A stretch of DNA of 64,000 nucleotides, from positions 1 to 64,000 of the forward strand of contig NZ_VFPT01000003.1 in the NCBI RefSeq assembly GCF_006716865.1, given 5' to 3'. A model generated the notes under the pieces. That model was not told the origin of the DNA. It ran no database searches and worked only from the letters and a program-made list of their open reading frames with translations. Positions 5,953-62,530 of this stretch are shown here, one piece after another. Origin of the DNA: Roseinatronobacter monicus (GTDB lineage Bacteria > Pseudomonadota > Alphaproteobacteria > Rhodobacterales > Rhodobacteraceae). The position numbers were made by a program, and so were the translations under genes. Each line of letters begins with the position of its first letter. Positions within the stretch are counted from its first letter, which is position 1.

Positions 5953-8900
5953 TCAACCATTGCGTGCATGTAGGCCAGCCACGGGCAGGCGCGCAAGCAA
6001 CTGCTTTAGAACCGTAATCCCGCGCGGATCCGTCGGGCAGAACAGCCGCAGCTTCCACGCGATGATTTCCGAGAAGAAGCCATCGGCCTTCAGCCGGTCC
6101 TTGGCGGCCTCGGTGAACCCGGAGAGCTCGATCCGGTTCACGCCCATGACGCGGGAGCGGTGAAGTTCCATCCCCTCGGCCAGCCGCACCACCGTCTTGC
6201 CCTCGAGAACAAGGGCATGGACCTGCGCCGCTGTCAGTTTTGGTGCATCCTCCGCCAGCGTGGTTGCGACCCAGGCGGGCGAAACGCGGCGGCCAATGAT
6301 GCGTTGGCCGTCATCGGTTTGCAGCCGGTAGACGCGGGTTTCATCCTGCGGCAGTTGCTTCCAGATCGGCAGCAAGAGCCCCGCCACGATGTGCAGGGTG
6401 GACTCGCTGAACTCTGGCACCTCGGCCAGTTCCGCCGTCCAGGCGGCAGTGAACGCCGCGCGGTCGGCTTCCAGCCAGTGGGTGTCCTCCATGATTTTGG
6501 CCGGAACCGTGCTGGCATCAAGCGGGCGGATCAGCCGCAGGCGGGGCTCTATCGTGCCATCATCCAGCATCAAGCTGGTGGCGGGCACCTGCACCGCAGC
6601 CCGGTTTGAGCGGCTGTTGACCAGAAGGCGTGCCTTCGGGTCGTCGAGCCAGTCCAGCGCATCCGCCAGCGACAGCGGCGTGTTGCGCCGTTTTTCCGCA
6701 ATGGTGAGCAGCTGGGTTTCGGCGCCAGAGCCGGGATGGGTGTAGATCACCCTTGCATCGGTGACGCGAAAGCTTTCGGCGCGCAGCGTCTCGAGACCGA
6801 GGTCATAGACCCCGGCGGCGATGGCGCCCTCGATGCGCGCGTCGAGCAAGTCCTCAAAGGCCGCAAACAGCACGCCCTGCATATCAATCGTCAGCGCCAG
6901 CAGGCGATTGAGGAAGGTGGTGATGGGGGGCAGGTCGTCCTTCAGACCGTTGTCATCGGTCAGGCTGAGGCCCGTCGCATCCTCGAACGCCTCCAGCGAG
7001 CAGCCCGCCACATCGCCGCGATGCAGTTTGCGGTAGAGCTGGCGCAGCGCGTCGCGGGCATAGGGCGACTCGAGATTGTCTTCGGGCCGGAACAGCCCTT
7101 GCCCCCCGGTCTGGCGCTGGCCGCGCGTGATGGCACCCAGCGTGTCGAGGCGGCGGGCGATGGTGGAGAGGAACCGTTTCTCCGCCTTCACATCGGTGGC
7201 GACGGGGCGGAACAGTGGCGGTTGCGCCTGATTGGTGCGGTTGGTCCGGCCAAGGCCCTGGATCGCCGCATCGGCCTTCCAGCCCGGCTCAAGGAGGTAA
7301 TGGACCCGCAGGCGCTGGTTTTTCACCCCGAGATCGGCATGGTAGCTGCGCCCCGTGCCGCCGGCATCCGAGAAGATCAGGATGCGCTTCTGGTCATCCA
7401 TGAAGGCGGCAGTTTCCGCGAGATTGGCTGAGCCCGCGCGGCTTTCCACGACAAGGCGCGCGGCAGGACCCTCGCCCTTGCGCACGATGCGGCGCGAGCG
7501 GCCTGTGACCTCGGCCACGAGATCGGTCCCGAAGCGCTGCACTATCTGGTCGAGCGCGCCCGGGACGGGCGGCAGGCTTGCCAGATGCTCGATCAGCGCA
7601 TCGCGCCTACGCACCGCCTCGCGGCATTCCACCGGCTGGCCATCGCGCGTGACAGGCCGCGAAGACAGGTTGCCCTCGCTGTCGGTGAAGGGCTCAAACA
7701 GCTGCACCGGGAAGGAATGGGCGAGGTAGTCCAGGCACGCATCCCTCGGCGTGATGTCAACGCGGACGTCATTCCATTCATCCGTGGGGATGTCTGACAG
7801 GCGGCGTTCCATCAGCGCTTCGCCGGTGGAGACGATCTGGATGACCGCTGCATGGCCTGCTGCCAGATCGGCTTCAATGCTGGAAATGAGGGTGGGGGTT
7901 TTCATGGAAGTGAGCAGATGGCCGAAGAAGCGCTGCTTGGCGGACTCGAAAGCCGAGCGGGCGGCGGACTTGGCCTGGCGGTTCAGCGTACCGCCGGATT
8001 CGCCTGTCGAGCTGGCCGGGCCAGTAATGTTGGCCGCTTCCAGCGCCGCGGACAGGTTCCGATGTATGACTCCGAAGGCGAGCGCATATGCATCATAGAT
8101 GCCGCGCTGCTCGGGACTGAGCGCGTGAACCAGCATCTCGTATTCGACGCCGTCATAAGAAAGCGACCGGGCGGTGTAGAGGCCAAGCGACCGCAGATCG
8201 CGGGCAAGGACTTCCATCGCGGCGACGCCGCCTGCCTCGATGGCCTGGACGAACTCCGCACGGGTGGTGAACGGAAAGTCCTCCCCGCCCCAGAGGCCGA
8301 GGCGTTGCGCATAGGCGAGGTTATGCACCGAGGTCGCGCCCGTGGCCGAAACATACACGACGCGCGCATTGGGCAACTTGTGCTGCAGGCGCAGGCCCGC
8401 CCTGCCCTGCTGCGATGCCTCGGTGTCACCGCGCTCGCCCTTGGACCCTGCGGCGTTGGCCATGGCATGGCTTTCGTCAAACAGGATCACCCCGTCGAAA
8501 TCCGCCCCGAGCCAGTCGACGATCTGATCGACGCGGGACTTTTTTGCGCCCCGCTCTTCCGAACGCAGCGTGGCATAGGTGGTGAAGAGAATGCCTTCCG
8601 TAAGCGGAATGTCCTTGCCTTGGGCAAAGCGCGAGAGCGGCGTGACGAGCAAGCGTTCCTGCCCGAGGGCCGACCAATCGCGCTGCGCATCCTCCAACAG
8701 CTTGTCGCTTTTGGAAATCCAGAGCGCCTTGCGCCGTCCCTGCGCCCAGTTGTCCAGAACAATTCCGGCCGACTGGCGGCCTTTGCCCGCACCGGTGCCA
8801 TCGCCGAGGAAGAAGCCACGGCGGAAGCGGATGGCGTCCACGGCACCGTCGGGCGCGGCTGAGACCATGTCGCCAGTTTCATCAATGCACCACGAGCCAG

Positions 8901-49680: not shown

Positions 49681-50658
49681 CCGCGCCGACTGCCTACGAG
49701 ATGCAAGACGTTGAAGTGATGATGCGGAAATAAGTCAACCAAGAGCAAGGACACTCCGGGAATGGCTACGGCCCTCTGAGGTCGATAAGCCGATTGGAAC
49801 CTCGCTCGCGGAATTCATCAGGGCCAGTGGAGGCAATGCCAAAACATAAACAGGCCGGACAGACGACAGTACTGACGAAAATGACCGCAAACATCGACAG
49901 AAAACGCTTGCAATGCAGGAGCCACCCACAGAGGACATTCCGCCAAGTTGAAATGCTGCAGGGGCAGTCGGCTGCAGGAGCCTCATTGCGGACCCTCAGG
50001 CAGGGTGAGGCATGTACCGGGAGATCGACAGACAGGGCGAAAGCCGACTGACGGCGCCGCGGCAATGCTTCCGGAGAGTCCTCCGAAAGCAGCCATTTCA
50101 TTCGCGCTGTCTCGATCACGCGGTGACAGGATCCGCTTCAATGACATGCCCTATCCTACCATGATTTCGCGGCAACCTATTGTCTGTAAGATGGTTTAGG
50201 GCATTATTTGATGAGTCGTGGTTGACCACCGGTCCAGGCAGCAAAGTTGGTATCATCTTTACCGGATCCGGGATTCAGATTGGCATTTCTGTTGAAGGTC
50301 ATGTAGCGCGCGATAACGCCCTGACAGCTCTGGCAAATGATCGAAAGCCTTGAAGCGCCTCCCATGTTGAAGTGCGGGTGCGGAGCATCGAACGCTACCC
50401 TCTTCAAGTTTATCATTTGTTGGCGGCCTCAAAACAAACGCCTATCTGGCTAACCGGTGATGTTGAAGTTCACATCCCCGGCAGCTGTTCAATCGCCCAA
50501 CCGGACACTCCATTAGGTTGCCTCAACTGATGAGGAAGCTTGGCTCTTTGCGACGCTCGCTCCCGTATAAGTTCGAAAGATTAAAACAGATGTTGTCAAT
50601 CCAAGCCTAATCTCCTTCCTGGCTGAAACACGTAAGAATCTGAAAAATATACATTCTT
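49681..50658. other. Gene-free stretch before ami operon
   Basis: About 980 bases with no gene I can support. One short minus-strand frame (50204-50416) has no recognisable family. The GC content falls towards the ami promoter. Confidence 0.4.
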
Positions 50659-50687
50659 TTGTGTTGCTAATTTTATAAAAATATTGT
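50659..50687 (+). promoter_or_regulatory. Candidate ami operon promoter
   Basis: TTGTGT (50659-50664), 17 bases and TATTGT (50682-50687) form a plausible sigma-70 promoter in an AT-rich stretch. Transcription would begin near 50694, just before the first leader hairpin. It is one of several possible pairs here. Confidence 0.4.
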
Positions 50688-50698
50688 AGCGTAAAGAG

Positions 50699-50784
50699 AG
50701 AGATCAACAGCGATCTTCACAGAGTTAAGGCAATAAAGCCCTGCATGACAGCATCAAGAGTGATGCTTCTTGCAGGGCTTTTTC
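50699..50784 (+). promoter_or_regulatory. Leader antiterminator/terminator (ANTAR target candidate)
   Basis: Hairpin 1 is AGATC-AACAGC-GATCT (50701-50716), with a six-base loop. Hairpin 2 is GCATC-AAGAGT-GATGC (50751-50766), also with a six-base loop. Both loops fit AANAGN. Hairpin 2 sits inside AAAGCCCTGCA/TGCAGGGCTTT (50735-50781), a strong stem followed by TTTTT-like runs, which is a rho-independent terminator ahead of the first gene. Paired hexaloop hairpins with the second overlapping a terminator are the known target layout of ANTAR antiterminators. The operon ends in such a protein, AmiR. The ~34-base separation between the hairpins is longer than I would expect. Confidence 0.65.
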
Positions 50785-50829
50785 TGTTTTGGCGGTACTC
50801 AAGAATCATGTCCAGGGAGGAATGTAACG

Positions 50830-52074
50830 ATGAAGCGTCGCAGTTTTATACGAAGTGTCGGAGCCGTAGGCGCGATGGCAACAACAGGTGTACTCGGTGC
50901 CCCAGCACTTATTTCCGGTGGCGGTCGAGCGTTTGCAGCAAATGGAGAAATCCCGATTGGATTGCTGTTTTCATTGACAGGTGAAGTCGCCGTTGTTGAG
51001 CGAACGCTTCATGATGCAGCGTTGCTGGCCATTGAAGAAATCAATGCGGCCGGCGGAATACACGGAATGCAATTGAGGACATTCATTGAGGATCCGGCAT
51101 CAGATCCGGCGACATATGCTGATCGTGCGCGCCGGTTGATGATCCGTGATAATTGCGTCAGCGTGTTCGGTTCTTACACATCCGCAAGCCGACAGGCAGT
51201 GTTGCCAGTCGTAGAGGGGCGAAACAATCTTTACTGGTACCCAACTCTCTACGAAGGCCGTGAGTGTTCGCGCAACGTCATGTACGGCGGCGCTGTTCCA
51301 AACCAACAGCAGCAGGAGTTTGTGCCATGGCTGAAAGAAAATTTTGGTGGCCGTTTCTATCTGATTGGTAATAACTACGTCTATCCGCGCGAGGAAAACA
51401 ACGTATGTAAGATGATCCTTGCCCAGATTGGCGGGGAGGCGGTTCACGAAGAATATGTCCCTCTTGGGCATTCTGATTTCAGCTCAGTTATAAACCGGAT
51501 CCGTTCGGAACAACCCGATGTCATCTTTTGCACTCTGGTCGGCGACTCGGATGTGGCCTTCGCGCGGCAATATCGCGCTGCTGGCTTCGATCCAGAAAAG
51601 ATGCCTTGCGCCAGCCTTACGCGCTCAGAAGTTGAAGTTGCAGCAATCGGTGGTGACGCCGCAGCCGGACATTTTTCGTCGGCACCATATTTCATGGGTC
51701 ACCAGTCTACTGAAAACGAACGCTTTGTCGAAGCGTATCGCTCGCGCTTCGGTGCAAATGAAGTGACGCATTTTGTCTCAGAGGCTGCCTATTTCCAAGT
51801 CTATCAGTTCAAGGCAGCGCTGGAGAAACTCGATCCCGCAAACATCACCCCTGAGGCAATACGCGATGCATCAGTCGGAACCACGATCACCGCACCTCAG
51901 GGTGAAATAGTAATCGATCCCAATCTGCACACACATCTCTGGCCCAAAATCGCTCGCTGGAAGTCGGACGGACAAGCAGAAGTTCTGGTACAGTCTGGGG
52001 CACGCGTGGCGCCAGAACCCTACTGGGCCTATGAGGGGGAAACTTGTACCGGAGAAGGTCTCATCCGAGGCTAA
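50830..52074 (+). CDS. Amide/urea-type ABC transporter substrate-binding protein
   Basis: This 414-aa periplasmic binding protein is of the branched-chain amino acid/urea/amide type (UrtA, FmdD and AmiC relatives). It starts MKRRSFIRSVGAVGAMATTG, a twin-arginine-like signal, with AFA as a likely cleavage site near residue 35. The mature protein begins IPIGLLFSLTGEVAVVERTL and carries FGSYTSASRQAVLPV and NLYWYPTLYEGRECSRNVMY, motifs also found in AmiC. GGGAGGA precedes the ATG. It is the first gene after the leader, followed by four transporter genes and the amidase. A short aliphatic amide is the likely ligand. Confidence 0.88.
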   Translation: MKRRSFIRSVGAVGAMATTGVLGAPALISGGGRAFAANGEIPIGLLFSLTGEVAVVERTLHDAALLAIEEINAAGGIHGMQLRTFIEDPASDPATYADRARRLMIRDNCVSVFGSYTSASRQAVLPVVEGRNNLYWYPTLYEGRECSRNVMYGGAVPNQQQQEFVPWLKENFGGRFYLIGNNYVYPREENNVCKMILAQIGGEAVHEEYVPLGHSDFSSVINRIRSEQPDVIFCTLVGDSDVAFARQYRAAGFDPEKMPCASLTRSEVEVAAIGGDAAAGHFSSAPYFMGHQSTENERFVEAYRSRFGANEVTHFVSEAAYFQVYQFKAALEKLDPANITPEAIRDASVGTTITAPQGEIVIDPNLHTHLWPKIARWKSDGQAEVLVQSGARVAPEPYWAYEGETCTGEGLIRG

Positions 52075-52226
52075 TACCGCCAATCAGCCATACACACTGG
52101 GCAATCAAAGTGCCCACGGTGAATTATAAGCCACCCTGGAATGACATGTTTTCTGTCAGTTGGTCGTGTCATGGCGCGACTAACTGACAAGCATGCTTCG
52201 TCCAAAAAACCAAAGGGATGTCGCCG

Positions 52227-53096
52227 ATGGATGCGATCCTAAATCAGGCATTTGCAGGCCTCAGCATGGCCTCGATACTTTTGATGGTCGCCCTTGGGTT
52301 GGCCATCATCTACGGGGCCATGGGGGTCATCAATCTCGCGCATGGTGAATTTGTCATGCTTGGGGCCTATGTCACTTGGGCCATGCAAACATTTCTGGGC
52401 GTCGGGCTGCTGATGGCACTTCCAGTGGTTTTCATCGCGATTGGTGTCGTCGGCTGGTTGATCGAGCGTGGAGTTGTTCACCGACTTTACAGGCGACCGC
52501 TGGACACGATCCTCGCGACATGGGGTATTGGAATTGTGCTGCAACAGTGCGTTCGCATGGGCATCGGTTCCGAATCCCGGTTCGTAGCCGGTCCCAAGAT
52601 TCTCGAGGGCAACCTGATAATCGGCAATGTCTACATGTCGAATTACCGAATCTTTGTGTTGGTCTTTTCAATTGCCGTTTTGATGGCCACTTGGATACTT
52701 CTCAGCCGCACTGAATTTGGAAAGAAGCTTCGTGCGGTTATCCAGAATCGAGAAATTTCTGAGTGTTATGGCATTCGTGCCGAGAAAATCTATTCTCTAA
52801 CCTTCGCATATGGAGCAGGGCTGGCGGGCGTTGCTGGTGCCCTGATCGCGCCTCTGGTCAGTACGACGCCCTCGATGGGTACATATCTGGTTGTTGATGC
52901 ATTTCTGGTCGTGATTATGGGTGGTGTGGGCTCAATTGCCGGCACTGCAATCGCGGCCGGCGCCGTCGGCGAGGCAACAGCATTCTTCTCCATGATGATG
53001 AACGACACAATTGGGCGCATCGGTGTCTTGATAGCAATCATTCTGTTTATCCGTTTTCGGCCAAACGGATTGTTCCCACAGTCAGTACGGCATTGA
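52227..53096 (+). CDS. ABC transporter permease (UrtB/LivH-like)
   Basis: This 289-aa inner-membrane permease is of the branched-chain/urea importer family. It is hydrophobic throughout, with about eight helices. ALGLAIIYGAMGVINLAHGE in the N-terminal part and the EAA-like loop region GIRAEKIYSLTFAYGAGLAG are typical. AAGGGA lies eight bases before the ATG at 52227, while an ATG at 52218 lies on that ribosome-binding site. It pairs with the second permease to form the channel. Confidence 0.88.
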   Translation: MDAILNQAFAGLSMASILLMVALGLAIIYGAMGVINLAHGEFVMLGAYVTWAMQTFLGVGLLMALPVVFIAIGVVGWLIERGVVHRLYRRPLDTILATWGIGIVLQQCVRMGIGSESRFVAGPKILEGNLIIGNVYMSNYRIFVLVFSIAVLMATWILLSRTEFGKKLRAVIQNREISECYGIRAEKIYSLTFAYGAGLAGVAGALIAPLVSTTPSMGTYLVVDAFLVVIMGGVGSIAGTAIAAGAVGEATAFFSMMMNDTIGRIGVLIAIILFIRFRPNGLFPQSVRH

Positions 53097-53106
53097 GGAG
53101 ACCGGA

Positions 53107-54222
53107 ATGAACCGCACAAACCAATATGATTTGCTTGGTTACGCTATTTTCGCATTCGTTATCATGCTTGCAGTGCCTTCGGTGCTAGGTTTTGACGGGT
53201 TCGAATTGAACACGTTTGCACGCTATTTGGCGCTGGCTATGGTCGCGATGGCATTGGCGCTTTCTTGGGGGACTGCAGGGATCCTGAACTTAGGCCAAGC
53301 CGCTACATTTGGGATCGGTGCCTATATCATGGCCATGCACCTGAAGCTGAAGAATAGCGTCAACAACCCCGGGGGCATGCCTGACTTCATGGGGTGGACC
53401 AATGTCGACAGGTTGCCATTGTTCTGGGAACCGTTCCATTCGTTGCCTGTCACGCTGATTGCCGGATTTGTCGTCCCAGCATTGGTCGCGGGCTTGATGG
53501 GGCAGTTTATGTTCCGCGGCAGAGTGACAGGGGTGTTTGTCGCGATCATCATGCTGGCTTTCCTTGTGGCCTTGCAGCTGATCTTTATCGAAGAGCAACG
53601 CTATACTGGCGGGCAAAACGGGCTGACCGGACTAGCGCCACTGGTTCTGGGCGGATGGCGCGTTGATAACTATAGTGTTGAATTCTACTATCTTGTTGCA
53701 GGCTGCCTGATTACTGCGCTCCTAATTGGGGCGCTGGTGACGCGAAGCAAATTTGGCCTGATCTTGCGCGCGATCCGCGACGATAATCTGCGGGTCCGAT
53801 ACTTCGGATACGACGTGGCGCGATATGAGACAGTTGTGTTCTGTCTTTCAGCCGCAATCGCTGGCTGGGCCGGCATGCTGTATGTGTTGGTACTGGAATT
53901 CGCTTCACCCACATACATGGGAGTCGCCTTTAGCTTGGCTATTGTCATCTGGTGTGCCGTCGGCGGACGTGAGTCCCTGCTGGGGGCAGCCATCGGAGCG
54001 ATATTGGTCAACCTAGCCGAAGGGCGGCTGTCGGATGTTTTCGTCGAAGGCTGGCTCTTGATACTTGGCCTAATGTTTATCTTCTTTGTAATCTTTCTGC
54101 CACGCGGGTTGTACGGGCTGATGCGCAGCACCTTTGCGCTGATCAGAAAAAACAAACCGCGGATGGAAAGCCCGGGTCGCCCAAATCCAGACCCCCATGT
54201 ATCAAAGGAAACTGCGTCATGA
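53107..54222 (+). CDS. ABC transporter permease (UrtC/LivM-like)
   Basis: This 371-aa permease has about ten helices. SWGTAGILNLGQAATFGIGA, then the cytoplasmic loop ILRAIRDDNLRVRYFGYDVA and a polar C-terminal tail (RMESPGRPNPDPHVSKETAS) are characteristic. GAGGAG precedes the ATG. Its stop overlaps the next gene's ATG (ATGA), showing translational coupling to the ATPase. Confidence 0.88.
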   Translation: MNRTNQYDLLGYAIFAFVIMLAVPSVLGFDGFELNTFARYLALAMVAMALALSWGTAGILNLGQAATFGIGAYIMAMHLKLKNSVNNPGGMPDFMGWTNVDRLPLFWEPFHSLPVTLIAGFVVPALVAGLMGQFMFRGRVTGVFVAIIMLAFLVALQLIFIEEQRYTGGQNGLTGLAPLVLGGWRVDNYSVEFYYLVAGCLITALLIGALVTRSKFGLILRAIRDDNLRVRYFGYDVARYETVVFCLSAAIAGWAGMLYVLVLEFASPTYMGVAFSLAIVIWCAVGGRESLLGAAIGAILVNLAEGRLSDVFVEGWLLILGLMFIFFVIFLPRGLYGLMRSTFALIRKNKPRMESPGRPNPDPHVSKETAS

Positions 54223-54947
54223 GCTTTCTGGAAATACGCAACCTCACGGTTCAGTTCGGCGGTTTGAAGGCGGTGAACGATCTAAGCCTCGATGTGAAAG
54301 CCGGCGAGTTGCGCTGTCTTTTGGGGCCGAATGGAGCTGGCAAATCCACGATGCTTGATCTGATTTGCGGCAAGACCAAGGCGACCTCCGGACAAATATT
54401 ATTTCAGGGTCAGGACATCACCTGGCTGAAGGAGTACAAGCGCGCGCGCCAAGGCGTTGGCCGCAAGTTCCAAGTGCCATCTGTTTTCAAACAGCTGACC
54501 GTGCTGGAAAATCTTGAAGTCGCCCAATCTCGAAAGGCGGGTGTGCTGGATGCGCTTCTGGTATTTCGAACGCCAGTCCGCGGTCGGATCAAAGAGGTTC
54601 TTGAGCGCGTCGGCCTGATAGAAATGATCGACACTCACGCGGGCAACCTCTCGCATGGTCAGACGCAATGGCTTGAAATAGCGATGTTGCTGGCACAGGA
54701 CAGCAAGCTGATCCTGATGGACGAGCCCACCGCAGGCATGACCATTCAAGAAACCCTCAAGACGGCCGAGATATTCAATACATTGAAAGGCGAGCACACG
54801 CTGATTGTTGTCGAACATGACATGCAATTCGTGCGCGAAGTAGCCGAACGCGTCACCGTGATGAACCAAGGCAGCGTGCTGGCTGACGGCTCCATCGCTG
54901 AAATCGAAGCAGACCCTCGGGTCAAGGCCGTGTATCTCGGACATTAG
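54219..54947 (+). CDS. ABC transporter ATPase (UrtD/LivG-like)
   Basis: This 242-aa ATP-binding subunit starts MSFLEIRNLTVQFGGLKAVN. It has Walker A GPNGAGKST, the signature-like LSHGQTQWLEIAMLLA and Walker B LILMDEPTAGM, followed by the switch VVEHDMQFVREVA. It powers the importer with the next gene. The signature SHGQ replaces SGGQ, as in UrtD-type proteins. Confidence 0.9.
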   Translation: MSFLEIRNLTVQFGGLKAVNDLSLDVKAGELRCLLGPNGAGKSTMLDLICGKTKATSGQILFQGQDITWLKEYKRARQGVGRKFQVPSVFKQLTVLENLEVAQSRKAGVLDALLVFRTPVRGRIKEVLERVGLIEMIDTHAGNLSHGQTQWLEIAMLLAQDSKLILMDEPTAGMTIQETLKTAEIFNTLKGEHTLIVVEHDMQFVREVAERVTVMNQGSVLADGSIAEIEADPRVKAVYLGH

Positions 54948-54956
54948 GAAAGACAC

Positions 54957-55652
54957 ATGCTTCAGGCAAAAAACCTCTATTCCTATTACGGGAAAAGCCC
55001 AGTTTTGCAGAATATCGGCTTTACGCTGGAGCCTGGAAAATTGCTAAGCGTGCTTGGGCGCAACGGCGTGGGCAAGACCACATTGATGCGGACGATCATG
55101 GGGCTGACTGACCGTGTTGAAGGGACTCTGACTTTTGATGGCAAAGACATCGCAAGCTTGCCGACCAGTGATCGAGCGCTTTTAGGCATCGGTTATATCC
55201 CGCAGGGCCGCGAGGTGATCCCGCGGTTCACTGTGGAAGAAAACATTGTGATGGGTACCTATGCACGCAAAGACGGAAGCCGTGATATCCCCGAATATAT
55301 CTTCGATTTGTTTCCAGTCTTGCGCGAATTTCTTCATCGTCGGGGTGGAGATCTTTCAGGGGGACAACAACAACAGATCGCCTTTGCGCGGGCCCTCGCA
55401 ATGAAACCCAAATTGTTGATCCTGGATGAACCAACAGAGGGAATTCAGCCAAACATAGTGCAGCAAATTCACGAAGTTATAACCCGGCTAAATCGCGAAT
55501 TTGGGCTCACGATCGTGCTGGTCGAACAGAACGTGCCGTTTGTGCGCGAGGTATCTGACCAGTTCATCGTAATCGACAAGGGCCGAGTGGCCGCTGTGGG
55601 CACCAGCCAAGACCTGACGGACGAACTTATTGATCGTCATCTGACTTTCTAA
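54957..55652 (+). CDS. ABC transporter ATPase (UrtE/LivF-like)
   Basis: This 231-aa second ATP-binding subunit has Walker A GRNGVGKTT, signature LSGGQQQQIAFARALA and Walker B LLILDEPTEGIQPN. VEQNVPFVREVSDQFIVIDKG at the end is typical of UrtE, including the asparagine-valine variant of the switch region. It follows the other ATPase with a nine-base gap. Confidence 0.9.
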   Translation: MLQAKNLYSYYGKSPVLQNIGFTLEPGKLLSVLGRNGVGKTTLMRTIMGLTDRVEGTLTFDGKDIASLPTSDRALLGIGYIPQGREVIPRFTVEENIVMGTYARKDGSRDIPEYIFDLFPVLREFLHRRGGDLSGGQQQQIAFARALAMKPKLLILDEPTEGIQPNIVQQIHEVITRLNREFGLTIVLVEQNVPFVREVSDQFIVIDKGRVAAVGTSQDLTDELIDRHLTF

Positions 55653-55721: not shown

Positions 55722-56762
55722 ATGAGACACGGAGATATCTCTAGCAGCGACACAACTGTCGGCGTTGCAGTTGTAAATTATAAGATGCCTCGGTTGCACA
55801 CTAAGGCTGAAGTCATGGAAAACGCGCAGAAGATCGCAGACATGGTTGTTGGAATGAAGAAGGGTTTACCGGGTATGGATCTTGTGATCTTTCCCGAATA
55901 CAGCCTGCAAGGCATCATGTATGATCCAGAAGAGATGATGGAGACGGCCGTTTCCATTCCCGGTGATGAAACCGAGATATTCGCCCGCGCCTGCCGCACA
56001 GCCAATACATGGGGTGTCTTCTCTTTAACCGGCGAGAAGCATGAAGATCACCCGCGCAAGAACCCTTACAACACGCTTATCCTGATGAACAATAAGGGTG
56101 AAATTGTTCAAAAGTACCGCAAGGTTATTCCATGGTGCCCGATCGAGGGCTGGTATCCGGGTGGTGCCACCTACGTCTGCGAGGGGCCCAAAGGGCTCAA
56201 GGTCAGCATGATAATCTGCGATGACGGCAACTACCCCGAAATCTGGCGTGATTGTGCCATGAAGGGTGCCGAACTGATCGTTCGCTGTCAGGGTTATATG
56301 TATCCCGCAAAAGAACAGCAGGTGATCATGTCGAAGTCAATGGCATGGGCCAATAACTGCTACGTTGCGGTGGCCAATGCTGCGGGTTTTGATGGGGTCT
56401 ACAGTTACTTTGGACACTCAGCCATTATCGGTTTCGATGGTCGCACGCTAGGTGAATGCGGCGAAGAGGAAATGGGCATCCAGTATGCGCAACTCTCGAT
56501 CCCCGAGATCCGTGATGCCCGCGCCAATGACCAGTCGCAAAATCATCTCTTCAAGCTCCTGCATCGCGGATATACTGGCGTTCATGCCGCCGGTGACGGT
56601 GACCATGGGATTGCGGATTGTCCCTTCGACTTCTACAAGACTTGGGTAAATGACGCCCAGAAAGCCCGTGAACAGGTTCAGGCCTTTACCCGCACAACTG
56701 TTGGCGTTGCCCAGTGTCCGGTCGGTTCGCTACCGAACAAAGCAAAAGAACAGGAAGCCTGA
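55722..56762 (+). CDS. amiE: Aliphatic amidase
   Basis: This 346-aa protein matches Pseudomonas AmiE in length and, by eye, in most of its sequence. As a nitrilase-superfamily enzyme it hydrolyses short aliphatic amides such as acetamide to the acid and ammonia in the cytoplasm. The catalytic triad is at the expected places: E59 (FPEYS), K134 (KYRKVIPW) and C166 (IICDDGN). GAGGAG lies upstream of the ATG. It follows the transporter genes directly and gives the substrate to which the operon is tuned. Confidence 0.96.
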
Positions 56763-56800: not shown

Positions 56801-56889
56801 AAGCCCCTTCAGCATAGTGACTGTCTCTAACTGCAGCTTCACTCAAATTGACTTAAAATCGTGGTTCGCACGATTTAGGAGTGCGACTG

Positions 56890-58044
56890 ATGCCTTTTTT
56901 GAATGATATGCTCGAGGACACTGAACGTCGCCGACGCGATGCTCTAGCCTTACAAGCCGAAACACTGTCATCAAAAGATGTCGTCGGTGCGCATCTGGCT
57001 TCGGGTGCAATCAACAGCCGTTTCCGATTCGATATCGATGTGATCCGTCAACATCTTGAGCATGAGATTATTGGCCAGGATGATGCTTTAGCAGGTATTA
57101 TTGATATGCTTAGCATCGTTCGCGCGGATATCGCAGATCCGCGACGGCCACTTTACACAAGTCTCTTGCTGGGTCCGACTGGGGTCGGCAAGACAGAGAT
57201 GGTGCGGGTTCTGGCCAAGGCGATGCATGGCGATGCAGACGCCCTGTGCCGAGTCGACATGAATACGCTGTCGCAAGAGCACTACGCCGCAGCGATTTCT
57301 GGCGCGCCACCTGGTTATGTGGGATCAAAAGAGGGTCGAACCATCCTAGATCAAGAGAAAATCGAAGGCTCCGCCGGGAAGCCTGGAATAGTACTGTTTG
57401 ACGAGTTCGAAAAAGCCAGCGCCGAAGTTGTGCTGTCACTCCTCAACGTCTTTGACAACGGCATTTTGACCGTAGCATCTGGCGAGCGCGTCTATTCCTT
57501 CCGCAATGCAATAATCTTCATGACATCCAACCTTGGCACCGAACATCTGCGTCGAGAGGCTATCCGACAGACGAAGCCTTGGGCAACGCTGCTGAACGCC
57601 GGCAAGACCCGCAAACAGCGTCTGCATACAATCGCTCAAGATGTGCTTCTGGAAAGTTTCCCACCGGAGTTTGTCAATCGTATTGACCAGATAGAGGTAT
57701 TCAATTGGATCGATCACGAGAATGTTGAGGTTTTGATTGCCTTAGAGATGGAAAAACTCAATCGCCGCCTGAACAAACACGACTGCCTACTTGAAATTTC
57801 ACAAAAACTGCGTGACCATATCGCCTTAAACGGATTTGACCGCCAATTTGGAGCGCGCTCCTTGAGGCGGGCTGTGAGGAGGTTTGTGGAAGTGCCATTC
57901 GCGCGCTTTCTGCTCGGAAGCGAAGCAGCCAGTACGGCTGATGTGGCTGGGAAATCCTTCACCGCGGACCTAGTTGCGGGCGAGGCTGTTATCCTGCGTT
58001 CGGATGAGGCTGGAAAAGAGTATGATGAATTCTCGCGAAGATAA
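56890..58044 (+). CDS. amiB: AmiB-like AAA+ ATPase (ClpA/B/X type)
   Basis: This 384-aa protein has one AAA+ module: Walker A LLLGPTGVGKTEMVR, Walker B PGIVLFDEFEKA, sensor-1-like IIFMTSNLGT and the Clp C-terminal D2-small-like part FDRQFGARSLRRAVRRF. It lacks N-terminal Clp domains. AmiB of the Pseudomonas ami operon is a similar ATPase, thought to energise or chaperone the amide system. AGGAG lies eight bases before the ATG at 56890, favouring it over a GTG nine bases upstream. It overlaps amiC by ~20 bases. Confidence 0.85.
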   Translation: MPFLNDMLEDTERRRRDALALQAETLSSKDVVGAHLASGAINSRFRFDIDVIRQHLEHEIIGQDDALAGIIDMLSIVRADIADPRRPLYTSLLLGPTGVGKTEMVRVLAKAMHGDADALCRVDMNTLSQEHYAAAISGAPPGYVGSKEGRTILDQEKIEGSAGKPGIVLFDEFEKASAEVVLSLLNVFDNGILTVASGERVYSFRNAIIFMTSNLGTEHLRREAIRQTKPWATLLNAGKTRKQRLHTIAQDVLLESFPPEFVNRIDQIEVFNWIDHENVEVLIALEMEKLNRRLNKHDCLLEISQKLRDHIALNGFDRQFGARSLRRAVRRFVEVPFARFLLGSEAASTADVAGKSFTADLVAGEAVILRSDEAGKEYDEFSRR

Positions 58045-59182
58045 TGGTTCCTGGAAGCTTGGCGTCTTGTTTTCAGAGACGGGTGTCACGTCGGTTATAG
58101 AAAAGTCACAGAGGAATGGTGCCCTGTTGGCGATCGGAGAGATAAATTCAAAGGGCGGCGTGGGAGGGCGGCCCCTGGAGCCGGTAATTTATGATCCACG
58201 TTCGATTCCTGAAGAATATGGTCGTCTGGCTGAAAAACTAATTTCTGAAGATGGCGTAAGGCTGTTGATTGGATGCTACATGTCCTCAGCACGCAAGGAA
58301 GTGCTTCCTGTGATCGAGAGGCGCAATGCACTGTTCTTTTACCCCACGCTCTATGAGGGCTTCGAGTATTCGCCAAATGTAATCTACGGCGGCGCGTGTC
58401 CAAATCAGAACAGCGTACCGCTAGCCAGCTACCTGTTAGAAAATTACGGTACGCGCTTCTATTTTGTGGGCTCCGATTACATCTACCCCCGCGAGTCTAA
58501 CCGCGTGATGCGCAATATATTGCGTCAAGGCGGTGGTGAGGTGATTGGCGAGCACTATCTACCTGTGACGGTGGGCAAGGAGGGTTTTGCGGATATTTTA
58601 CTGGATATAGAGCGCACGAAGCCCGATGTGATTTTCTCGACGGTTGTCGGCGAAGGAACGATTAATTTCTACCAAGCCTATTATGAAGCAGGCCATGACG
58701 CGCGCAAGGTGCCCATTGCCAGTCTAACAACAAATGAAGCTGAGATTTCTGCTATTGGCGCAAAGGCTGCCGTTGGTCACATAACTGCTGCGCCTTATTT
58801 CCGCACTATTAACACGGCTAAAAGTCGCAGATTTCTTCAAAGCTATGCGAACATGTTTGGGTCGGATGAGCTAGTAACAAGTTGCTGTGAAAGTGCATAT
58901 TTTCAAGTACACATGTTGGCAGAGGCGTTGGAGCGCGAGAAATCACTTGATATCGAATGCCTGCGCGAGCAATTACTGGGAAGCACATGGGACGCTCCTC
59001 AAGGTAAAATCAAGATCGACCCTGACAACAACCACACATACCTTCATGCGCGTATCGCAAAAGTGGATAGCAAGGGGGATTTTATTGTCGAAAGAGAGGT
59101 TCGCCGTTCGATAAAGCCCGATCCATACCTTGTAACACCGGATTTGAATGATCGAAGGTTTCGTCTGCAGCAAGCGTCCTGA
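58022..59182 (+). CDS. amiC: AmiC-like amide sensor
   Basis: This 386-aa protein has no signal peptide and is homologous to the Pseudomonas AmiC amide-binding negative regulator. Matching segments are LGVLFSETGVTSVIEKSQRN, LLIGCYMSSARKEVLPV, FYPTLYEGFEYSPNVIYGG, IASLTTNEAEISAIG and APQGKIKIDPDNNHTYL. AmiC holds AmiR inactive until an amide binds. Two adjacent ATGs at 58022 and 58025 are both possible. The start overlaps amiB. It is also similar to the operon's own periplasmic binding protein, from which such sensors are thought to derive. Confidence 0.92.
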   Translation: MMNSREDNGSWKLGVLFSETGVTSVIEKSQRNGALLAIGEINSKGGVGGRPLEPVIYDPRSIPEEYGRLAEKLISEDGVRLLIGCYMSSARKEVLPVIERRNALFFYPTLYEGFEYSPNVIYGGACPNQNSVPLASYLLENYGTRFYFVGSDYIYPRESNRVMRNILRQGGGEVIGEHYLPVTVGKEGFADILLDIERTKPDVIFSTVVGEGTINFYQAYYEAGHDARKVPIASLTTNEAEISAIGAKAAVGHITAAPYFRTINTAKSRRFLQSYANMFGSDELVTSCCESAYFQVHMLAEALEREKSLDIECLREQLLGSTWDAPQGKIKIDPDNNHTYLHARIAKVDSKGDFIVEREVRRSIKPDPYLVTPDLNDRRFRLQQAS

Positions 59183-59249: not shown

Positions 59250-59855
59250 ATGACAAACATGATTGCGGAAGTTCGTACGCTCAATGTTCTTGTTCTGCAT
59301 CCGCGGGACTCTGATTGTGACGACCTGATGCAGCAGGTCGTTCGGATTGGATGTAAGGTGGAGACACTATGGCCCGTCCCTGAAAGCCTGCCGACGAATG
59401 TGGATGTGGTCTTTATCGAAATCCGCGAGGCGATCTCGCCTGCATTGGCAAGACTTTTCCTGCAGCGTCTCGAGAGACGCCCGACAGTTATTGGGATCAT
59501 TGGCTACGAAAATCCTTCAGTCATGCAATGTATGCTCAATCTGGACGTCCATGCGGTGATCAGTAAGCCGTTACGTGCTTTTGGGGTGCTAAGCTGTATA
59601 CTTTTGGCTCGTCGGGTATGGCAGACGCAGATCGATTCTTTCAAAACCGAAGAAAAGCTCAAACTGAAACTTGAAAATATCCAAAAGATCACAGAGGCAA
59701 AGTTTATCCTCATGCGGCTTCATACCATAAACGATCAAGACGCTTATAAAATTATCCGAAGCCATGCGATGTCGCGCCGCACGTCAACCATTGAGATTGC
59801 GAACGCTATCATTAATGCAGACGGGCTACTCAGCAATCTGAATGTCAAGAAATAA
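59250..59855 (+). CDS. amiR: AmiR-like ANTAR antiterminator
   Basis: This 201-aa protein has an N-terminal pseudo-receiver domain (LNVLVLHPRDSDCDDLMQQV, about 1-125). A coiled coil (KTEEKLKLKLENIQKITEAK) follows, then a C-terminal ANTAR RNA-binding helix bundle ending in IANAIINADGLLSNLNVKK. It matches AmiR in layout and length. Released from AmiC, it binds leader RNA and prevents termination. Its most likely target is 50699-50784. A short gap of 67 bases separates it from amiC. Confidence 0.92.
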   Translation: MTNMIAEVRTLNVLVLHPRDSDCDDLMQQVVRIGCKVETLWPVPESLPTNVDVVFIEIREAISPALARLFLQRLERRPTVIGIIGYENPSVMQCMLNLDVHAVISKPLRAFGVLSCILLARRVWQTQIDSFKTEEKLKLKLENIQKITEAKFILMRLHTINDQDAYKIIRSHAMSRRTSTIEIANAIINADGLLSNLNVKK

Positions 59856-60539: not shown

Positions 60540-61147
60540 TTATTGAGCAGTCCAGTTCCAGGGCATCAGCTCGTCGATATGGGGCATTTTGTGATCTGCG
60601 ACGCGGGCGAGGACCCAGCGCAGCCAGGCTTCGGGATCGACATTGTTCATGCGACAGGTTTCAATGAGCGTATAGGCGATTGCGGCAGCGTCGCCGCCGC
60701 CCTTTGATCCCATGAACAGATAATTCTTGCGCCCGAGAGTCACCGGTCTGATTGATCGCTCGCAGATATTGTTGTCCAGTTCCAGCTTTCCGTTCTCGAG
60801 ATATGCCCGGGCCTTGGGCATGCGGCCGAGCGCATAGCGTATGGCTGCTGCCAGGTTCGACTTGCCGGAAATCTTGGGCAATTGCAGCGAAAGCCATGCC
60901 TCGAGGTCATCAAAGATCGGCTTCGCCTTTGCCTGCCGCAGGACCACACGTTCTTCAGAGGGTTTGTAGCGCGCCTCTTTTTCCACGGCATAGAGGGCGG
61001 CGATGCGCTTGATTGCTTCTTCGGCGATGGCAGAACCTTCGCTTTCATAGATATCGACGAACTTGCGGCGGACATGAACCATGCAGGCCTGCTCGCTGGC
61101 GAGCCCCGCCCCGAACAGATCATTGAACCCGGTGAAGCCATCGGCAT
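60540..61147 (-). pseudogene. IS66 tnpC, 3' part (split by IS256)
   Basis: From [13 protein letters not shown] to the terminal [10 protein letters not shown], this is the catalytic C-terminal half of the TnpC whose first half is at 62531-63443. It includes [20 protein letters not shown]. Joining the two parts across the 9-bp duplication restores one frame, with IS256 as the only visible lesion. Confidence 0.92.
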
Positions 61148-62530
61148 GAGCTATGACTGAATCTGGTGTTTTGGGGATTTGAAAGCTGGCGGTGCATCTG
61201 GTTGGATTGTCGTTGCGACACAACCCGCCAACCGAAGAGGACGCACCACCATGGACGAGAGTAACATTGTTGAATTTGCCGGTCGAGATGCGATCGCGGA
61301 CCCATTGACGGAACTTCTGCGCAAGGGCGCGCGGGAATTGCTGCAATCTGCGGTGGAAGCCGAGCTTGAAACTTTCATGGCCCAATTTCAGGACCGGAAG
61401 ACAGCCGATGGCCATGCTGCGGTTGTCCGCAACGGCCATCATCCGGAACGGGCCGTGCAGACCGGTATCGGGCCTGTCACGGTGAAGGTTCCCAAGGTGC
61501 GTTCAAAGACTGGCAAGCCCGTCACCTTCCACTCCGCGCTGGTCCCGCCCTATGTGCGCAAGGCCAAGTCACTGGAGGCGGCACTGCCCTGGCTATATCT
61601 CAAGGGTATTTCCACCGGCGAGATGGATGGGGCCCTGAAAGCCCTGCTCGGCCCGGACGCCGCGGGGTTCTCGGCAAACACCGTCGCGCGGCTCAAGTCG
61701 AAATGGGCCGCTGAATACAGCGACTGGTGCATGGCCGATCTGGGCCGGGATGACTGGGCCTATCTGTGGGTCGATGGCATCTATAGCGGGCTGCGCGCGG
61801 CCGAGGACAGGCTCTGTGCGCTGGTCGTGATCGGCGTAAATGCCCGTGGCGAAAAGCACTTCCTCGCCATCGAGGATGGTGTGCGCGAGTCCACGCAAAG
61901 CTGGCGCGAGGTGTTGCTTGCGCTGAAGGCACGGGGTCTGAAGGCGCCGAAGCTGGCCATCGGGGACGGTGCCATGGGGTTCTGGGCCGCGCTGGAGGAG
62001 GTCTTCCCCAAAACCCGCCAACAGCGATGCTGGGTTCACAAGACGGCGAATGTGCTCAATTGCCTGCCCAAACGCTCGCAGCCCAAGGCCAAGAAAATGC
62101 TGCATGACATCTGGCAGGCTGAGACCAGGAAAGACGCCGAGGCTGCCTTCGATCTGTTCATCGAGACCTATGAGCCGAAATATCCCAAGGCTGCCACCTG
62201 CCTGATCAAGGACCGGGAAGAGCTGCTATCTTTCTACGATTTTCCAGCGCAGCACTGGCAGAGCATCCGCACCACCAACCCTATCGAGAGCACCTTCGCC
62301 ACCATCCGTCACCGGACCAAACGCGCAAAGGGCTGTCTGACCCGTCCCGGAATGCTGCACATGATGTTCAAGCTCGCGCAATGCGCAGAGACAAGCTGGC
62401 GCAAGCTGCGCGGCTTCGCCCACCTCGCCGACGTCATCGAAGGCGTCGATTTCATCAACGGCGTCAAGCCATCAACCCCAGATCAGGCCGCCGCATGACA
62501 AGCCCCAAACACCAGATTTGACAATAGCTC
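61148..62530 (+). mobile_element. Complete IS256-family element
   Basis: This 1,383-bp element has ends beginning GAGCTATG and GAGCTATT, with inverted similarity continuing through AATCTGGTGTTT. A perfect 9-bp duplication CATCGGCAT flanks it (61139-61147 and 62531-62539), as expected for the family's 8-9-bp duplications. It contains one intact transposase. Confidence 0.95.
61251..62498 (+). CDS. IS256-family transposase (mutator type)
   Basis: This 415-aa DDE transposase starts [20 protein letters not shown]. It contains [20 protein letters not shown], the catalytic region [11 protein letters not shown] (Asp), [11 protein letters not shown] (Asp), [11 protein letters not shown] and [15 protein letters not shown] (Glu). 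Length and order match the family. The chosen ATG at 61251 begins the conserved region. Longer frames reach into the terminal repeat. It looks intact and active. Confidence 0.95.

Follow-up and report, generated by a model that had tools for sequence, protein, structure and literature searches.

A probable AmiR-controlled attenuator without the loop guanine of ANTAR targets, ahead of a transporter-amidase operon in Roseinatronobacter monicus

The locus described here lies in the first 64,000 nucleotides of R. monicus contig NZ_VFPT01000003.1 (hereafter the window, part of a contig of 154,656 bases in a genome of 4.73 Mb), where nine same-strand genes follow a leader that an initial annotation, made from the sequence alone, had proposed as the target of AmiR. 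These encode UrtA-like, UrtB, UrtC, UrtD, UrtE, amidase, AmiB-like, AmiC and AmiR proteins, so named in gene order, and the end of the operon is as the annotation had it, with amiC before a last gene carrying AmiR_N and ANTAR domains:

50830..52074, plus strand: UrtA-like periplasmic binding protein, operon gene 1 (UrtA model 374 bits, under the cut-off of 493)
52218..55652, plus strand: urtB, urtC, urtD and urtE, urea/amide-type ABC transporter (four NCBIfam equivalogs over cut-off)
55722..56762, plus strand: amiE, aliphatic amidase (NF009802, 708 bits versus a cut-off of 427)
56881..58044, plus strand: amiB-like gene for an AAA protein that resembles the C-terminal half of ClpB
57974..59182, plus strand: amiC, amide-sensing binding protein (mechanical ORF; Peripla_BP_5, 449 bits)
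59250..59855, plus strand: amiR, ANTAR antiterminator (Pfam domains as above)
59733..59735, plus strand: codon of AmiR Asp162, equivalent to EutV Glu160 in a gap-free ANTAR-domain alignment to EutV 6wsh

By eye the N terminus of the UrtA-like protein (50830..52074) is twin-arginine-like, and the true start of amiC is probably near 58022 rather than 57974. The product of 56881..58044 is named AmiB-like after the Pseudomonas aeruginosa operon, and the next protein is presumably AmiC, a name that comes from its place ahead of AmiR. The P. aeruginosa amidase operon has the gene order amiEBCRS, which includes AmiS; no counterpart of AmiS was recognised in the nine-gene row here. The window's AmiR has the features of its family (both domains and an adjoining AmiC-like gene), and its best match among solved structures was 1QO0, P. 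aeruginosa AmiR. Directly 3' of the operon, on the 154-kb contig, we noted IS66-type and Mutator-type transposase genes (window 60540-62498), given which the operon may have been transposed by mobile elements.

The leader contained the following elements:

50664..50692, plus strand: tentative promoter-like pair TTGCTA - 17 nt - TAGCGT
50700..50717, plus strand: P1, putative recruitment hairpin GAGATC-AACAGC-GATCTT, a C-G-closed hexaloop with A1 and A4
50729..50740, plus strand: P2, putative antiterminator hairpin GGC-AATAAA-GCC, with A1 and A4, 11 nt past P1
50735..50781, plus strand: intrinsic terminator stem, with a U-run at 50779-50783
50751..50766, plus strand: apex hairpin GCATC-AAGAGT-GATGC at the top of the terminator, predicted to have an A-U-closed tetraloop, AGAG

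The two hairpins named in the initial annotation, P1 and the apex, do exist, with loops (AACAGC and AAGAGU) that both fit its pattern AANAGN, and the apex hairpin indeed lies inside a strong terminator; P2 was overlooked there. Positions 50735-50740 are common to the 5' foot of the terminator and to the loop and 3' arm of P2; since the 3' arm of P2 (50738-50740) is itself terminator foot, the two structures are mutually exclusive. The region 50640-50850 folded more stably than 200 of 200 dinucleotide shuffles (z -4.61). A transcript truncated after P2 had P1 plus P2 as its minimum-energy fold (-9.4 kcal/mol), and the full leader folded as P1 plus terminator, 7.5 kcal/mol below the form in which P2 was enforced. 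Because P2 is just three pairs long and comes at this 7.5 kcal/mol cost relative to the terminator, it would need protein or kinetics. The order of folding suits a switch: P2 is able to form ahead of the terminator, which then displaces it unless something keeps P2 in place. A composite scan for P1, P2 and terminator, run with a strict terminator cut-off, returned one site in the 64-kb window and none in 30 random sequences of that length from a first-order Markov model (mean 0.00, maximum 0); the window yielded no further leader. Rfam, which may lack an ANTAR family, gave no gathering match in the window and, at E up to 10, nothing beyond chance-level matches in 50550-50900. As to the promoter, a sigma-70 consensus scan of 50300-50900 returned none and no sigma-54 -24/-12 box was found by eye 5' of the leader. 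A TTG followed, after 16-18 nt, by a hexamer that poorly resembles a -10 box stands at a similar distance 5' of P1 in most of the type-I relatives introduced below, and a start about 7 nt past the promoter-like pair might conceivably make P1 the 5' end of the transcript.

Hairpin pairs of this sort are known targets of ANTAR proteins. ANTAR dual hairpins occur in eut, nas and ami leaders with P2 at the 5' base of the terminator (Ramesh 2012, PMC3369931); the loop consensus drawn from eut mutants is A1, G4 and a C:G closing pair, the linker is 5-12 nt in the Enterococcus faecalis eut leaders, and in P. aeruginosa amide bound to AmiC lets AmiR bind the leader (PMC3369931). In vitro selection with NasR likewise favours A1, G4 and a C:G closing pair (PMC7496416). 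In the EutV-RNA structure, G4 is described as flipped out onto Tyr164 with hydrogen bonds from Arg142, Lys149 and Glu160; EutV E160A bound 60-fold more poorly, Glu160 contributes to the ANTAR dimer contact as well, and a stepwise model has the protein load on P1 and pass to P2 (PMC8934654).

The window's leader has tandem hexaloops, A1 and a C:G closing pair in both, an 11-nt linker and the overlap of P2 with the terminator; when tested for G4, however, both loops were found to have A at position 4, and for this reason we class the leader as a variant rather than a canonical ANTAR member. A variant had been suspected in the initial annotation, and the long hairpin spacing noted there is gone once P2 replaces the apex hairpin. 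The leader resembles those of E. faecalis eut (PMC3369931, PMC8934654) in its two hexaloop hairpins, A1, C-G closure, short linker, P2 that shares the 5' foot of the terminator and ANTAR regulator, and differs in the absence of G4 and in a closing doublet of UC/GA rather than the AC/GU reported for eutP; EutV is a phosphorylated response regulator with Glu160, whereas the window's AmiR is of the binding-protein-released kind and has Asp. Like the P. aeruginosa ami operon, the window's operon combines a leader of hairpins and terminator with genes for amidase, AmiB-like, AmiC and AmiR proteins; unlike it, the window's operon is headed by a UrtABCDE-type ABC transporter, and its loops are without the G4 that, with A1, is said to be in both loops of the P. 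aeruginosa amiE leader (PMC3369931). The Klebsiella nasF leader shares the tandem C:G-closed hexaloops and the setting in a nitrogen operon, but NasR has a NIT-domain sensor and is described as preferring A1 plus G4 (PMC7496416), whereas the window loops have A1 only. Of the residues that contact RNA in EutV, the window's AmiR keeps Lys149, Tyr164, Arg168 and Met172, with Asp for Glu160 and Ile for Arg142.

Ten type-I relatives were compared first (L004-L007 and L037-L042, our numbers for loci; the L042 leader is directly 5' of the amidase gene). All ten, like the window, had a P2-type hairpin of the form [GA]GC-A.....-GC[CT] between P1 and the terminator. The initial annotation had named poor conservation of its two hairpins in close homologues as a refuting outcome, and on this the comparison was mixed: P1 recurred in 10/10 as a C-G-closed A1 hexaloop (that of L004, with its third pair mismatched, was missed by the scan rule), while the apex took this form in four only (L004-L007), which besides the window were also the sole leaders compared with an A1/U6 apex. 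The apex tetraloops in those four were CCGC and AUGA. Elsewhere, 0/13 other leaders folded had a C-G-closed A1 hexaloop at the apex; they had tetraloops there, except for a triloop in L133, U-A-closed hexaloops in L077 and L131 and an octaloop in L138.

In support of P1 and P2 being maintained as paired elements, 92.0% of cells were paired when 25 such P1-P2 elements, drawn from 22 loci, were aligned, versus at most 42.7% in slid versions. Cells with both sides changed numbered 52 versus 20.0 in shuffles, and the covariation score was 0.561 versus 0.160 in shuffles and a slid maximum of 0.207 (0/500 shuffles as high in either case). Since the elements were chosen partly for pairing, the slide and compensatory-cell comparisons weigh more than the percentage paired. 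Across the 25 elements, changes on both sides were seen at four of the five pairs in P1 and at one of the four in P2, and two of the five covariation measures did not exceed shuffles, there being no excess of pairs with both-side change (5 versus 5.2) or of further pair types (16 versus 13.5; 31/500 as high). A leave-out covariance model of eight leaders, without the window and L004-L007 (a set used because MAFFT misaligned the 18-leader set), had 50699-50742 as its best match in the 64 kb (27.9 bits; next 13.7) and the window's leader as its best in the genome (next 17.2 bits, with 150 of 501 first-look candidates scored); no second strong genome target of the P1-P2 kind was seen among the candidates so scored. 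The second-best genome match of model R1 (20.8 bits) is by eye in coding-like sequence, and an earlier genome model search scored 150 of 1758 first-look candidates. Genus-level searches for further type-I operons (1, 4 and 1 genomes) gave no new match. We also observed, in several lineages, a frequent C-C or U-C mismatch at the second pair under the C-G closing pair of P1 (L008, L009, L016, L054, L075, L076 and L132-L137), which may play a part in recognition.

The leader could be weak, because G4 is absent from both loops and its replacement by A in eutP loops is reported to lower induction (PMC3369931). Loop base 4 was set alongside the AmiR residue equivalent to EutV Glu160 in 39 regulons. 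The 17 regulons whose AmiR lacks Glu160 had 18 leaders with 36 loops, none with G4 (A in 30, U in 6), such that wherever AmiR had Asp, Ala or Ile at 160, base 4 of each hairpin found was A or U. The 22 regulons with Glu160 had 33 leaders with 54 loops, 41 of them with G4, and at least one G4 in each of the 22. Counted by leader, G4 was present in 0/18 Glu-less leaders (12 distinct loop pairs) versus 32/33 Glu160 leaders, or 33/36 with the two L090 leaders and the one L086 leader described below added. The discovery set had no G4 with Asp160 (the window, L008, L009, L037, L038, L041 and L042) or Ile160 (L077), and at least one G4 with Glu160 (L004-L007, L011, L013, L014, L016, L039, L040, L043, L044, L054-L056, L075, L076 and L086). 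For 20 new stretches the prediction was written before their leaders were viewed: nine of the ten that had lost Glu160 had a leader, with G4 in 0/9 as predicted, five of those nine (L133-L137, also five of the 17 Glu-less regulons) sharing one identical P1-P2 sequence, and the ten with Glu160 yielded four countable leaders, with G4 in 4/4. Residue 160 was the only one of 202 AmiR alignment columns to separate the two sets without error (next best, 0.83 balanced accuracy), and was again the sole perfect column in the ten type-I rows alone (next, 0.92). In L077 and L130-L137, which belong to the phylum of the window's genome and to another class, Lys149 is lost as well, and in six of these nine the leader stands 5' of the amidase gene, followed by amiC and amiR.

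Leaders without G4 do occur beside Glu160 AmiRs (the L040 main leader and the L090 sbp leader; also P2 of the L086 sbp leader). L040, L086 and L090 each have a second leader, with G4 in its P1, 5' of a cytosine/purine-type permease gene (family shown for L040 and L086; L090 annotated as cytosine permease). Worded after L040 was seen, the rule in this sample is that an AmiR retains Glu160 as long as at least one hairpin in its regulon has G4. We consider it somewhat probable that Glu160, with Lys149 as helper, sets the need for G4, and that the regulons without it form a separate class of G4-less switch. This residue-base rule is the new part; among the open-access papers searched (titles and abstract openings) we found none on residue 160 and loop base 4.

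The AmiRs are a sample rather than a census: wide stretches were taken for 12 of the 36 matches of one search, five more of which lay within stretches already taken, and for 9/9 matches of the other. Scoring was lenient for Glu160 regulons (any G4 in any leader) and strict for Glu-less ones, and A1 conservation in the counted rows is by construction, A1 and C:G having been required by the scans elsewhere. P1 was not determined as an A1 hexaloop in 12/33 Glu160 leaders; for the main leader of L004 it was assigned by eye (AGCACT), and a looser scan supplied the leaders of L055 (sbp), L140 and L147. Of two P1 registers listed for L133-L137, we took the minimum-energy one, AACAGC (-14.8 kcal/mol, versus -8.0 for the register with loop AGCGCC, which has G4). 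Uncounted were L003 (leader past the contig); L012 (a near copy of L011/L013); L139 (Asp160) and L089 (Pro160, His164), with no leader found in either; L149 (Glu160, ambiguous; P2 loop AAGGAC has G4); the Glu160 loci L141, L142, L144, L146, L148, L057, L078 and L088, with no leader by scan rules; L017-L020 (Glu160), with none by scan rules and A1/G4 hexaloop candidates by eye; the L090 sbp leader (Glu160; P1 AACAGC, P2 AAAAGA closed by U-G, no G4); the L090 permease leader (P1 AACGGG with G4, P2 loop GAAAAG without A1); the L086 leader at -2994 (P2 AATACG without G4, P1 candidates not A1); and a Met172-less AmiR-like subfamily (see below). Scan matches judged non-leaders included those at L043 +12331, L055 -14387, L077 -1210, L014 +2291, L088 +19148, L090 +15165, L015 -1295, L042 -11882 and L056 +407.

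An association of this kind may also arise by shared ancestry without coupling, which we regard as unlikely here. The best AmiR tree, for which G4 states were assigned manually and match the residue states as they do in the table, has six state changes, four of them forced by well-supported branches; the four independent contrasts on such branches all agree, but four contrasts cannot reach significance in a sign test (p = 0.125), so phylogenetic support for the association is limited. The Gln149/Ala-or-Ile160 group is moreover one clade of nine regulons, and the dimer-contact role of Glu160 (PMC8934654) could itself drive its loss. (The window joined L006-L007 at weak support, 86/61.) Against this, the two traits coincide in 39/39 rows and every contrast runs in the same direction, including that of the well-supported sisters L040/L042; ancestry would favour many columns, and residue 160 alone among the AmiR columns divides the rows without error; and the Gln149 group has lost Lys149, another G4 contact, too. 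It is very unlikely that the leader is a plain or decayed attenuator whose loops have drifted and whose operon has escaped AmiR control: both loops have lost G4, a base of importance to EutV and NasR (PMC3369931, PMC7496416), but P1, P2, A1, the closing C-G, the linker and the terminator overlap are intact, the stems covary, and G4 loss goes with the protein change, at least four state changes being forced by well-supported AmiR branches.

The remaining alternatives concern the apex hairpin. That AmiR binds P1 together with the apex hexaloop, as initially annotated, strikes us as most improbable. The apex pattern UC-ANNNNN-GA common to the window and L004-L007 does resemble P1, and its position 4 (G in L004-L007, A in the window) matches the residue-base rule; however, the hexaloop is absent from the 13 other leaders and folds as a tetraloop in the window, an apex held by AmiR would leave the terminator stem below free to form, and P2, which overlaps the terminator foot, is conserved in all leaders compared. 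Somewhat less improbable, but still unlikely, is that AmiR of the window's subclade binds all three hairpins, P1, P2 and the apex, with the last acting as an extra brake on terminator closure or as an AmiR sink, the terminated leader exposing P1 and the apex, as has been proposed of EutX/Rli55 RNA for EutV. The apex loop is kept in 5/5 subclade members whose leader was compared (the window and L004-L007) and its base 4 follows the rule, and a single hexaloop has been argued to be the minimal ANTAR site, EutX being named as having an extra one (PMC8934654); yet A1 and U6 are paired in 5/5, hence the tetraloops, and the five leaders are related, with three distinct apex loops only. What stands of the initial proposal, very probably, is an AmiR-controlled autoregulatory leader of which P1 is a rightly named part; what falls is the apex as the partner of P1.

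The locus thus very probably has an ANTAR-type antitermination switch at the operon start, and in our judgement it is likely that the leader is specifically an AmiR-controlled transcription attenuator, a specificity variant without G4 that sets P1 and P2 against the terminator. Computation shows two competing folds that are conserved and covary, the genes of the operon and, within the sample, the association of residue with base; the course of regulation that we infer is as follows. By default the transcript would fold into the terminator (50735-50781) and stop ahead of the operon. Amide on AmiC would free AmiR, which would bind P1 first and then P2 as it emerges from the polymerase; held by AmiR, P2 would keep its GCC foot from the terminator and allow read-through into the transporter, amidase, amiC and amiR genes. 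Because read-through reaches amiC and amiR, the circuit would be self-amplifying. Base 4 would be read differently, the guanine-bonding Glu having given way to a side chain that is shorter or neutral, and G at base 4 to A or U.

G4 is now regarded as invariant in the ANTAR target, and the seed of a published genome-wide search kept A1 and G4 in each loop (PMC3369931). If the residue-160 rule is true, G4-less ANTAR switches, not readily seen by an A1/G4-seeded search, will have been missed, and RNA targets would be predictable from protein sequence; two point changes (AmiR residue 162 and loop base 4) would then make a clean swap test of ANTAR RNA choice, and naturally orthogonal switch pairs might follow.

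Several observations were made beyond the window's operon. ANTAR-type leaders stand 5' of Transp_cyt_pur permease genes beside the ami operons of several relatives (family shown for L004, L039, L040, L043 and L086):

L004 1123-1166, minus strand: permease leader
L005 1100-1143, minus strand: permease leader
L039 near 3284, minus strand: permease leader
L040 near 11127, plus strand: permease leader
L043 near 8866, plus strand: permease leader
L086 near 7849, minus strand: permease leader

Since further leaders precede permease genes, these AmiRs seem to run small regulons. On a Shinella plasmid, a terminator-bearing leader with A1/G4 loops (L056 10640-10700) separates amiR from a urease operon that runs from ureE onward, and ANTAR control of urease is likely there. 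L042 has a divergent P1-P2 leader without G4 (7973-8015, minus strand), and the first long ORF past it had no Pfam match above cut-off. Beside amiC/urt genes in L045-L050, L052, L053, L079-L085, L110 and L115 we noted an AmiR-like subfamily in which Met172 is replaced by Thr (Gln in L046 and L047) and Lys149 is lost, both being RNA-binding residues in EutV; scans of the wide stretches L045-L053 and L079-L085 gave no P1-P2-terminator leader, and this Met172-less subfamily may bind other RNA or none. The closest relative found of the window's AmiR (71% identical) is in an ami operon on a contig labelled as a Thioalkalivibrio MAG (L003), which would represent either a misbinned contig or a transfer. 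Finally, the second ANTAR protein of the R. monicus genome (L001 / L087, G000:C1:1599382-1599540) has Lys149, Glu160 and Tyr164 (AKGILM, LNEEEAY) and is perhaps NasT-like.
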